Positions 24,662 through 27,928 of a stretch of 39,471 nucleotides of DNA are shown here, in pieces. The position numbers and the translations under genes were made by a program. A model generated the notes under the pieces. That model ran no database searches, was not told where the DNA came from, and was given only the letters and a program-made list of their open reading frames with translations. Every line of letters begins with the position of its first letter. Position 1 is the stretch's first letter. Source of the stretch: Acidobacteriota bacterium. Lineage in GTDB: Bacteria > Acidobacteriota > UBA6911 > JACQTF01. The DNA is taken from positions 1 through 39,471 of the forward strand of contig JACQTF010000085.1 in assembly GCA_016210925.1 (NCBI GenBank). The letters are read 5' to 3'.

Positions 24662-26260
24662 CTAGTTCCTGGACCTCGCGGGATTCCCGAGGACTTGCTG
24701 AAAAGCGTCGGCCAGGGAATCCAACAGGTCCCCGGCTACCAGCGATTCTTCGCCGCGGCGCGCTGCGGCCAGATCCCCGGCCAGACCGTGCGCGTACACC
24801 GCAGCCGAAAGAGCTGCGGCGTACTCTTTCGGGTGGCCTTCCGGTTGGCGTTTCACCAGGAACGACGCGACCACGCCGGTCAGGACATCTCCCACGCCGG
24901 CGGTGGCCATTCCCGGATTCCCAGTGGGACAGACGTAGACCTGACCGCCCGGGTCTGCCACCAGGGTCCGGTGCCCCTTCAGGATGACGTAAATGCCCTG
25001 TTCCCGAGCCAGAGTGCGGGACAGGGAGACGCGATTTTTCAGGACTTCCGAGGTGGAAAGGTTCATCAGGCGCCCCATTTCACCCGGATGGGGGGTGATG
25101 ACCAGCGGCAGGCCCTTATGATTCTGAAGCAGCTGCCTTTCTCCGCGAAAACCGTTGAGCCCGTCGGCGTCCAACACGAGCGGAACGGGAGAAAACTTGA
25201 CCAGTTGTCGCACAAAAGTCACCGTGCTGGGATGCGTGCTGAGTCCCGGTCCCAAGGCCAGGACGTCGGAATCTTCCAACAGCCGCAGGACGCGGTCCAG
25301 CGCCGCCTCCGAGATGGTTCCCTCTCCGGTCTCCTCCAATCCTTCGGTCATGAGCTCATAAAACTGGCTGGCGACCACGGGTTGAGACCCTCGGGGCGTC
25401 GCGATGGTCACGAGACCTGCCCCGGACCGAAGGGCGCCAAAACCCACCATGGCCGCCGCCCCGGTCTTTCCTCGGGAACCCGCGACTACCAGGATTCGGC
25501 CATAGTCCCCCTTGTGGGAGGTGGGGCGCCGAGGAGGAATGGTGCCGCGCACGTCCTCCGGCGTGATCAGGTTCAGAAAATACCGTTCGTCCTGCAAGAG
25601 GCTGTCGGGGGATCCGATGGGGCGAATGAAAAGCTTGCCCACCGCCTCCGCCGCATCTCCCAGCAGGTGGCTCACTTTCGGAGCGGTGAAGGTCACGGTG
25701 ACGTCGGCCACGACGCTGGGATGCTCCCGGCTCTCGGAGTCGCAAAACAGCCCGGAAGGGATGTCGATGGAGACATTTTCTCCCCGAGATTCGTTGAGCC
25801 CCTGTATCACTTCCGCGTACAGCCCCTCGACGGGTTTGGTGATCCCGGTGCCCAGGAGGCCGTCAATCTTGATGTCGTATTGGTCCAGCTGTTGGGCCGC
25901 CCGGCGCCACTCTTCGGTGGTAGTAACCTCCCGGAGCTGGATCTCCTCGATTTTTTCCAGAATCTTCAGGTTCGTGAGGGCATCCCCCTGGTACTGATCT
26001 CGGGCTGCCAGCAGGTACACCTCGGGGGCGATCCCTTTCATGGTCAGCTGCCGGGAGACTACCATCGCGTCGCCCCCGTTGTTGCCCTTGCCGCAGAAGA
26101 TGCCGATCTTTTTCGTGGGAAGATCCGGGTAGACCTCCTGGAGGACGGAAACGACCTGGATGCCCGCGTTCTCCATCAAGATCAGCCTCGGGATGCCGAT
26201 TTTCTCGCAAGTGACGTGGTCGATCTCATTCACCTCCGAGGCCTTCAGGATCTTGATCAT
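24662..26260 (-). CDS. nnr: Bifunctional NAD(P)HX epimerase / dehydratase
   Basis: A 532-residue fusion that repairs hydrated NAD(P)H. The N-terminal YjeF epimerase domain (residues 1 to about 215) has MENAG, GIFCGKGNNGGDAMV and the SIDIPSGL motif. The C-terminal ribokinase-like dehydratase domain (about 230-520) has LVVAGSRGKTGAA, LALGPGLS, VLDADGLN, ITPHPGEMGRL and the catalytic loop NPGMATAGVGDVLTG. The ATG at 26260 directly follows the promoter without a ribosome site. The relic integron cassette ends about 90 bases upstream. Confidence 0.95.
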   Translation of the reverse strand: MIKILKASEVNEIDHVTCEKIGIPRLILMENAGIQVVSVLQEVYPDLPTKKIGIFCGKGNNGGDAMVVSRQLTMKGIAPEVYLLAARDQYQGDALTNLKILEKIEEIQLREVTTTEEWRRAAQQLDQYDIKIDGLLGTGITKPVEGLYAEVIQGLNESRGENVSIDIPSGLFCDSESREHPSVVADVTVTFTAPKVSHLLGDAAEAVGKLFIRPIGSPDSLLQDERYFLNLITPEDVRGTIPPRRPTSHKGDYGRILVVAGSRGKTGAAAMVGFGALRSGAGLVTIATPRGSQPVVASQFYELMTEGLEETGEGTISEAALDRVLRLLEDSDVLALGPGLSTHPSTVTFVRQLVKFSPVPLVLDADGLNGFRGERQLLQNHKGLPLVITPHPGEMGRLMNLSTSEVLKNRVSLSRTLAREQGIYVILKGHRTLVADPGGQVYVCPTGNPGMATAGVGDVLTGVVASFLVKRQPEGHPKEYAAALSAAVYAHGLAGDLAAARRGEESLVAGDLLDSLADAFQQVLGNPARSRN

Positions 26261-26266
26261 GGCCCC

Positions 26267-26295
26267 AGATTTGCACAGTTTGCCAGGTGTGTCAA
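26267..26295 (-). promoter_or_regulatory. Candidate leaderless promoter of nnr-tsaE
   Basis: A consensus TTGACA (26295-26290, minus strand) is 17 bases from AAATCT (26272-26267), a poor -10. The start of transcription would coincide with the nnr ATG. The perfect -35 is the main support. Confidence 0.4.
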
Positions 26296-26349
26296 ACGAA
26301 GGGGGGTGGCCGGGCCCCGACCCTCCCGACCCTAAAGTTTTTGCGCTCG

Positions 26350-26428
26350 GCCTAACGGACGGCGGATGGTAATCCGCAGGCCGATAGGGCGGCCCGAAGC
26401 GCGTCGGCTGGATCGCGCGATGTTAGGC
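26350..26428 (-). repeat. attC-like integron recombination site
   Basis: Read on the minus strand, the site starts with GCCTAAC (26428-26422) and ends 79 bases later with the complementary GTTAGGC (26356-26350), the two outer core boxes (RYYYAAC and GTTRRRY) of integron attC sites. The TAA in the first box is the stop codon of the GNAT gene, as is common for cassettes. Inside are a perfect GCGGAT-GGTA-ATCCGC hairpin and further G+C-rich pairing; clean inner L boxes are not evident. Length is within the usual attC range. Confidence 0.65.
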
Positions 26429-26884
26429 ACCGTGTTCGGACCTGAGCTCCCATTCCCAAACCTCACCGTCCTCCGGGTGAACAACGCTACCCCTTAGCGC
26501 GAAGCCCAGTTTCTCGAGGATTCGGGTCGATGCGTTTCGTTCGGGTAGTGTCTGCGCTGTGACCGTGATGCCAGGTTCGGCCGCTTTGGCCAAGGCCAGG
26601 AGTTCGCGCGCCATCGAAGTCGCGATTCCGCAACCTTCGAATTCAGCGAAGGTGAAATACGCGATCTCTACTTCCCCCGAGGCAGGCGGCGCCTTGAAGC
26701 CACAACTCCCAACGACGCACTCGCCAGTCAGCGCAAGGTACACCAGCCAAGGCGAAACGAACCCGACCCTTTCGTACAGCAAGGCCGTCGCCGCGCACAC
26801 TTCCTTCACAAGTTCGTTCAGCTGCAAGCTGGATTCGCTTGGTGCGCCCGAACGACCGATTGGCAGAAGCCGTAGTTGCTGCAT
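26423..26884 (-). CDS. GNAT-family N-acetyltransferase carried in an integron-type cassette
   Basis: A 153-residue acetyl-CoA-dependent acetyltransferase of the RimJ/RimL-like group. The acetyl-CoA segment is EIAYFTFAEFEGCGIATSMARELL, and LPERNASTRILEKLGF is the C-terminal motif. The ATG at 26884 lies 11 bases after a GTTAGGC core, and the TAA stop lies inside the following attC, so gene and site form one cassette. An open frame extends 17 codons farther upstream across the core site but the cassette boundary argues against it. GNAT genes are common cassette cargo; the substrate (small molecule, antibiotic or protein) is unknown. Confidence 0.85.
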   Translation of the reverse strand: MQQLRLLPIGRSGAPSESSLQLNELVKEVCAATALLYERVGFVSPWLVYLALTGECVVGSCGFKAPPASGEVEIAYFTFAEFEGCGIATSMARELLALAKAAEPGITVTAQTLPERNASTRILEKLGFALRGSVVHPEDGEVWEWELRSEHGA

Positions 26885-26895
26885 TGTCGTCGTGT

Positions 26896-26902
26896 GCCTA
26901 AC
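26896..26902 (-). repeat. GTTAGGC core site at the start of the GNAT cassette
   Basis: GTTAGGC on the minus strand, identical to the R' box of the downstream attC, lies 11 bases before the GNAT ATG. It marks the presumed insertion boundary. I see no matching RYYYAAC box within the 100 bases upstream, so it would be an attI-like junction or a truncated attC. Confidence 0.55.
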
Positions 26903-26953
26903 AATGAGTGATTGCGAACCCCAGCTTCCGCACACTGCAGCCGTCGTAGTCTA

Positions 26954-26976
26954 TTGCCGCCCGCCACGGGCGGCAA
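26954..26976. repeat. Perfect 9-bp hairpin between integrase relic and cassette
   Basis: TTGCCGCCC and GGGCGGCAA pair perfectly around a five-base loop. No U-run follows on either strand. It lies in the 167-base stretch between the integrase fragment and the cassette boundary. Confidence 0.6.
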
Positions 26977-27068
26977 CGCGTCGATATGTGCCATGCCCGT
27001 CATATGATACTACGATTTGGTCTGGCGCAAGGGCCGCCAGGAACGCCGCCCCGGGCGCAGTCTAAGGC

Positions 27069-27383
27069 CTACAGCACCGCCGTCGCTTGTTTCTGCGTGG
27101 ACGCGCTGACGTGTGCACCCACAGCCAGGCGTGACAGGAACTGCGCCACCTCCGGAGCGCCCCTGGTCGCCGGATGGCGCTTGCCGTGAAACAGGATGAA
27201 CCGGCGGGTCCACCCCACACAGGCCTCCTCGGTGCGGCGACTGTAGTGGCGGACACGAAGAGCGTGGCGTACTTGATCCAGGAGCTTGGGTTTCCGCTCA
27301 GCCTCGCCCTCTTCGTGGGCCGTCAGTGCATCGGTATCGAGTGGCATCTTCTTCCACACGTGAGGGTGAACGCCGTGCTCCAT
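27069..27383 (-). pseudogene. Integron-integrase-type tyrosine recombinase, N-terminal fragment
   Basis: A 104-residue frame holding only the SAM-like DNA-binding N-terminal domain: KLLDQVRHALRVRHYSRRTE, then GWTRRFILFHGKRHP, APEVAQFLSRLAV and VSASTQKQATAVL, where it meets TAG at 27071-27069. The RHYSRRTE / FILFHGKRHP / SASTQ pattern is that of IntI-like recombinases. The catalytic domain with R-H-R-Y is absent and the sequence after the stop is unrelated. It runs in the same direction as the GNAT cassette, the arrangement of so-called reverse integrases. The fragment cannot be active. Confidence 0.7.
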
Positions 27384-27899
27384 CGGGCATATCCAGTGAC
27401 ACCCCCTATGGCTGAGGCCCCGGATAGTCCCTCAGTCATTGTCTGATCGGCCGGGGACCGATGGCGTGGGGGAAGTCACGCGGGCTAACGGCACGATCCT
27501 CGCCTCGTAGATGAGTCGCTCCAGGAGACGGGCGAGGTTCCCTCGATGCCCTTCTACGATTTCTTCAGGCTTGGATCTGGTCCGCCCGCGGGTAAAAGCC
27601 GGTGTGGTCGGAGGTAAACCGGCGGGAACAGATGTAATCCAGGGGTGATCCTGGGCTCCTTGCGGATCGCCTCTTCGATCTGGTCCCATGAGGTAATCGA
27701 CCGCCTTGTCGCCCAACCCGCGGGCTGGGGGCGGGGCAAAGGTAGGATCGCCGGGCCACTACGGTCTAACTACCGGAGAATGTCCCAAAAACGGCTGGGG
27801 CCGGGCTGACACGCCGGAAGGATCCATCCTGCAAGGATGCCTTTCAGGGCCAGAGGCCGAACGGGATGTCTTCCCTTCTGCCAGTATTCTCCCACTGGC
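27384..27899. other. Gap without a convincing gene; decayed coding traces
   Basis: Between the integrase fragment and the M48 promoter no intact gene is seen. On the minus strand around 27480-27740 pieces in different frames look protein-like (WDQIEEAIRKEPRITPGLH in one, KPEEIVEGHRGNLARLLERL in another), as if one frameshifted reading frame once crossed the region. I do not recognise it. No repeats or tRNA are visible. Confidence 0.4.
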
Positions 27900-27928
27900 T
27901 TGACACGGGAGGACCGGGGCACTAAAAT
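27900..27928 (+). promoter_or_regulatory. Consensus sigma-70 promoter of the M48 protease gene
   Basis: TTGACA at 27900-27905 and TAAAAT at 27923-27928 are separated by exactly 17 bases. The predicted start near 27935 gives a leader of about 70 bases. Confidence 0.75.

Follow-up and report, generated by a model that had tools for sequence, protein, structure and literature searches.

A probable relic of an inverted chromosomal integron carrying a GNAT cassette between nnr and an M48 protease gene

Results

We analyzed a 39,471-nt stretch of acidobacterial DNA (the window; contig C47 of genome G000, whose numbering is used for all positions), in which a decayed chromosomal integron had been predicted just upstream of nnr. 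Read along the minus strand from 27383 to 26260, the locus consists of a 104-codon open reading frame (ORF) resembling integron integrases, 167 nt, the heptamer GTTAGGC (26902 to 26896), 11 nt, a GNAT acetyltransferase gene (26887 to 26423) whose stop codon falls in GCCTAAC (26422 to 26428), a further GTTAGGC (26356 to 26350), and 89 nt leading to the nnr start at 26260. As predicted, the GNAT stop codon (TAA, 26425 to 26423) lies inside GCCTAAC, this motif and the downstream GTTAGGC together span 79 nt, and the upstream GTTAGGC ends 11 nt before the ATG at 26887. Counting both orientations, the heptamer occurs exactly three times in the window (about 1.9 expected), with all copies inside 553 bp. 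An Rfam scan of the window returned a tRNA as its sole match.

The 104-residue ORF (27069 to 27383, minus strand) had been described as IntI-like, and a hidden Markov model search proposed as a check on this returned models of integron integrases only (PRK15417, 1.9e-20; TIGR02249, 2.9e-18). The match begins at residue 34 of the ORF and covers the first 72 of 315 profile positions (27069 to 27284), ending before the catalytic domain. The sole match in the PDB was the Vibrio integrase IntI4 (2a3v, 2.9e-11), and the Pfam label of the fragment is Phage_int_SAM_4. At the DNA level, its closest relatives are a remnant on contig C181 of the same genome (84% identity) and the intact intI genes of genome G002, which have attC sites downstream. 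The fragment is thus a remnant of the IntI family; the IntI-specific insertion lies outside the surviving part and is visible in the copy on C134 of the same genome. With only residues 1 to 72 left, there is no functional intI at the locus, and to judge from its sequence the local integrase is dead because it lacks the catalytic domain. The fragment ends 167 nt before the cassette boundary, in line with the predicted distance of within 170 bases.

A comparison with relatives had also been suggested, and was made with 19 M48-gene loci, all from other genomes within the same class. Relatives were without the insert; nnr and the M48 gene were divergent neighbors with 152 to 324 bp between their starts in 18 of the 19, compared with 1745 bp here. 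This difference indicates that approximately 1.5 kb was gained between the native nnr leader, which is kept downstream of the insert (26261 to 26349, minus strand), and a promoter-like site of the M48 protease gene at its far edge (27900 to 27928, plus strand; TTGACA-17-TAAAAT, 11 of 12 positions). A search for the nnr promoter, upstream of which the insert had been predicted to lie, gave no sigma-70-like site, only a lone TTGACA (26295 to 26290). The insert also holds, upstream of the integrase remnant and beyond what the original prediction described, a 153-bp scrap of an amidohydrolase gene with its frame broken by 1-nt indels (27561 to 27713, minus strand). Intact counterparts of this gene encode 625 amino acids on C146 (89% DNA identity) and 644 amino acids on C227 (81%) of the same genome.

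The one gene between the upstream GTTAGGC and the GCCTAAC/GTTAGGC pair is an intact ORF of 154 codons, encoding a GNAT acetyltransferase (Acetyltransf_3, 1.3e-12). The GTTAGGC at its 5' boundary, which would stem from attI or from a preceding attC junction, is placed with respect to the ORF just as in a cassette on C74 of this genome. Full-length homologues with 36 to 57% identity were found in many phyla. A covariance model trained on the phylum of the window, which may miss weak attC sites elsewhere, gave no attC score higher than 13.3 bits at 37 loci of such homologues taken from named genomes. A plasmid search gave three distant matches with no cassette context seen, and a search of the PDB for a clue to the substrate found no relative. 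The GNAT gene reads toward nnr, with 162 nt from its stop to the nnr start, so that transcription may read through into nnr.

The 79-nt region downstream of the GNAT gene (26350 to 26428, minus strand), which had been predicted to be an attC site, turned out to be composite. Its R'' (GCCTAAC) and R' (GTTAGGC) boxes are complementary at 7 of 7 positions, and a perfectly complementary RYYYAAC..GTTRRRY pair 50 to 130 nt apart is found once in the window, compared with 0.08 times per Markov-shuffled window (8 of 100 shuffles). In the covariance search that had been proposed, using a model (R1) for which 26 attC sites were drawn from elsewhere in the phylum and none from this genome, the region ranked first in the window with 20.5 bits (E = 0.0017; next hit, 15.8 bits). 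The R'' and L'' parts look normal (GCCTAACATCGCGCGATCCAGCCGAC; L'', CGCGATCCAGCCGAC). However, L''/L' pairing scored 4.5, compared with at least 7 for the attC sites of relatives, which were listed with a cutoff of 6.5, and paired L arms with extrahelical bases were lacking.

The two halves of this region each have homologues. In the 5' half, comprising the spacer, L'', and the loop start of the GNAT cassette's attC (26389 to 26421), positions 26389 to 26417 align to an attC on C107 of the same genome with 22 identical nucleotides in a row (score, 46; maximum of 1000 shuffled nulls, 28). The 3' half (26357 to 26401) aligns to a gene-free module, starting GATGGCG, that lies beside attI on C134 of the same genome and in genome G157 (score of 44 for each; maxima of 27 and 28 among 2000 nulls). 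The halves overlap at a 13-nt direct repeat (26389 to 26401; CGCTTCGGGCCGC, second copy CGCTTCGCGCCGC), and C172 of the same genome has what we take to be the undeleted arrangement, i.e., an attC, then the ORF-less module, then an R' box. The predicted attC site was therefore borne out as regards the R''/R' pair and the rank in the covariance search, but it is not a whole attC; the L' arm is gone and ORF-less cassette sequence stands in its place. On these alignments, the site is a half-attC fused to the remnant of an ORF-less cassette, and since the join sits on a 13-nt repeat, a slippage deletion between the repeats is the simplest account and best explains the fused site. IntI recombines folded single-stranded attC hairpins in which both the R and L boxes are paired. 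Given the missing L' arm, the GNAT cassette should no longer be excisable by IntI and, with the local integrase also lacking its catalytic domain, the gene has probably become a permanent, ordinary part of the chromosome. Just outside R' (26340 to 26357), we noted an 18-nt similarity to C181 (L062:1090-1100; CGTTAGGCCGAGYGCAAA), which could reflect either a common landing sequence or coincidence.

The layout also agreed with the prediction that the integrase and the cassette point the same way, as in reverse integrons, with intI upstream of the cassette on the same strand. We conclude that the locus is very probably what remains of an inverted chromosomal integron, now dead and with a GNAT cassette, which inserted between the nnr and M48 genes.

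Several observations weigh against this conclusion. Three or more copies of GTTAGGC were present in 34 of 100 shuffled windows; it is only the clustering and spacing that stand out, not the plain count. The covariance score is weak when taken alone (E of approximately 0.15 genome-wide) and the lowest among the attC sites listed genome-wide, its alignment covers only R'', R', and three further pairs, and the model alone would not carry the attC claim. Against the C172 copy, the 3' half scored 35, where the largest of 2000 nulls reached 37 (another test gave 37 against 27, with 1000 nulls). The unremarkable heptamer count, along with the unpaired L'' and L' and the lack of attC hits at the GNAT homologue loci in named genomes, would suit an explanation in which the 79-bp inverted repeat arose by chance and GNAT is an ordinary gene beside unrelated debris. 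We find this scarcely credible, as a 22-nt stretch is shared exactly with a clear attC of the same genome, both cassette boundaries are where expected, an IntI remnant adjoins, and perfect R box pairs at such spacing were infrequent in shuffled windows. Barely more probable is an origin of the remnant from a non-integron tyrosine recombinase (of phage, XerC, or insertion sequence-associated type). With the N-terminal domain alone surviving, this copy offers no check on the IntI-specific insertion, and the Pfam name points to phages, but NCBIfam returned integron integrases only, the PDB only IntI4, and at the DNA level the fragment is closest to the C181 remnant and to the G002 genes with attC sites downstream.

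It could also be that the integrase remnant and the cassette stem from separate events. No attI was recognized in the 167-nt gap between them (26903 to 27068), which is its expected place; the gap matches neither the attI of intact relatives (..AATCAATA before GTTRRRY) nor, more generally, the sequence downstream of intact intI genes. A lone cassette might have been put into an off-target (attG-type) site by an IntI whose gene lies at another place in the genome, with the remnant arriving on its own. The genome does have isolated attC sites without an intI match on the same contig, e.g., on C74, insertion at an off-target site by an IntI acting from a distance is accepted as one way in which clusters of attC sites lacking integron integrases arise (CALINs; PMC8618304), and attG sites have been described (as cited in PMC12901181). 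We nevertheless regard this course of events as unlikely, since the remnant, 167 nt away from the cassette, is oriented as at all four other loci of the genome with an intI remnant and attC, and two independent arrivals in this order would be less likely. A single decayed integron with one captured cassette, as originally predicted, is supported by the IntI-only matches, the first rank in the covariance search, and the relatives without the insert. None of the outcomes named beforehand as speaking against it, such as a best match to phage or XerC-type integrases, was obtained.

At least 25 further attC-like sites were found in the same genome with model R1 (21 to 61 bits, mostly 26 to 61), as an array on C106 and as sites on C10, C27, C52, C74, C75, C107, C120, C132, C134, C147, C149, C159, C172, C181, C186, C201, and C204. 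Candidate pairs from a simple R box scan on C6, C145, and similar contigs were dropped where they lacked model support. Including the window, five loci in all have an intI remnant with attC downstream on the same strand, the others being on C52, C106, C134, and C181. On C106 (L065, L240, L242), an array of approximately six attC sites follows a C-terminal intI remnant on the same strand and is likely the main cassette array of the genome. The assembly, which is 90% complete, yielded no uninterrupted full-length intI; the best-preserved copy, on C134, is split among three overlapping pieces in different frames, that on C6 has an internal stop, and the remaining ones are short. Since a draft assembly may contain spurious frameshifts, the genome is only provisionally taken to be without an intact integrase. 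We also observed that intI on C134 is followed by a sequence of approximately 160 bp (L058:1480-1640; L262, L263) with repeated GTTCCGTATAAG/CTTATRCGGAAC motifs, which is 94% conserved on C204 and, over part of its length, 88% conserved on C86, where intI is absent. This sequence is probably attI with integrase binding sites.

The gene-free hairpin module, starting GATGGCGCGG, was seen in G000 on C134 (L058), C172 (L233), C107 (L137), and C204 (L234), in G157 on C46 (L171), and in G011 on C63 and C95 (L266, L268). Its first bases are GATGGCG, compared with GTTRRRY at the usual cassette boundary. On C134, on C204, and in G157, copies follow attI, i.e., they come after ...AATCAATA, which in intact relatives (L120, L131) precedes GTTRRRY beside intI. 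On C172, C107, G011 C63, and probably C95, they follow an attC L' arm and spacer. The module is rare, being found in 3 of 396 genomes by the pattern used, and these three belong to three family groups. That the copies begin at IntI crossover points suggests, tentatively, a mobile ORF-less cassette, a substrate of IntI with the noncanonical core GATGGCG (G|AT) instead of GTTRRRY, although we hold this to be somewhat doubtful.

To see how common the inverted layout is, 71 intact intI loci of the phylum were scored by their nearest attC. In 27, the array followed the 3' end of intI and shared its strand; in 23, it was classically divergent; one locus had same-strand attC sites on both sides, and 20 were without attC in range. 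The attC list was partly hand-chosen and most of the classical cases came from one family (f31), so the ratio should not be read as an unbiased frequency. Strong intI matches (E ≤ 1e-100) were present in 109 of the 396 sampled genomes of the phylum. Looking at the intact loci phylum-wide (L118-L230), we noted that inverted integrons outnumber classical ones outside f31, and that G002 carries, besides fragments, four intI genes that are complete or almost so, each accompanied by attC sites (L120, L124, L127, L128), L120 being the locus with same-strand attC sites on both sides. In a tree of the 71 IntI proteins and two pieces from the genome of the window, C134 grouped with L122 (same class, inverted layout; support, 100/97) and C6 with L127, L124, and L197 (inverted layout; 95/87). 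Layout was strongly clustered on the tree, and the inverted group required at least four changes.

Discussion

The arrangement can be accounted for by a short series of events. An integron would once have held intI and attI plus two cassettes, one with GNAT and one without an ORF, every part lying on the minus strand. One deletion would have removed intI residues 73 to 315 and probably attI, and a second, between the two 13-nt repeats, would have taken both the L' arm of the attC behind GNAT and the first part of the ORF-less cassette; this order is our reading of the remains. IntI needs a folded attC hairpin, and without L' the GNAT gene would stay put as an ordinary gene, presumably expressed and reading toward nnr. 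The locus may then serve as a worked example of how a captured gene turns permanent, with the integrase lost and the attC broken by slippage between short repeats. What is left is an ordinary-looking gene beside nnr, and standard detection would miss the relic (weak attC score, single attC, truncated intI); by default, IntegronFinder 2 reports CALINs only with at least two attC sites (PMC9024848). The genome around it has many cassettes yet no detected intact integrase.

The relic is ordinary in kind and instructive in detail, and the original prediction was right in both kind and layout. The kind of element is known, and the ORF-less cassette is its one unusual extra and the only part that might be new. 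If the module is indeed such a cassette, a G|AT core would be tolerated by these integrases at the attI and attC sites that belong to them, and a very small cassette devoid of genes would be moving from lineage to lineage. ORF-less cassettes are known from Treponema and Xanthomonas, in Treponema also in first position beside attI (PMC6557892); the module resembles these in having no ORF and in its occurrence beside attI, but differs in having GATGGCG at the boundary instead of GTTRRRY.

Inverted (reverse) chromosomal integrons are already known from Treponema (PMC3607928), e.g., T. denticola, and the inverted layout is common in the phylum studied here (27 of 51 scorable intact loci); a literature search for reverse integrons in Acidobacteria found no paper under those words. 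The locus shares the inverted layout with the Treponema elements, but differs from them in that 72 residues of intI survive, no attI can be recognized, and a single cassette is left. Inverted IntIs have been recognized as a sub-clade of the soil/freshwater clade (PMC8352920), whereas in our sample the layout changes several times rather than once. Finally, the locus resembles the CALINs and solitary attC sites of IntegronFinder terminology in having a cassette and attC without a functional integrase, for which loss of intI is a named origin (PMC8618304); it differs from them in that its single attC is itself broken and the intI remnant is still present.
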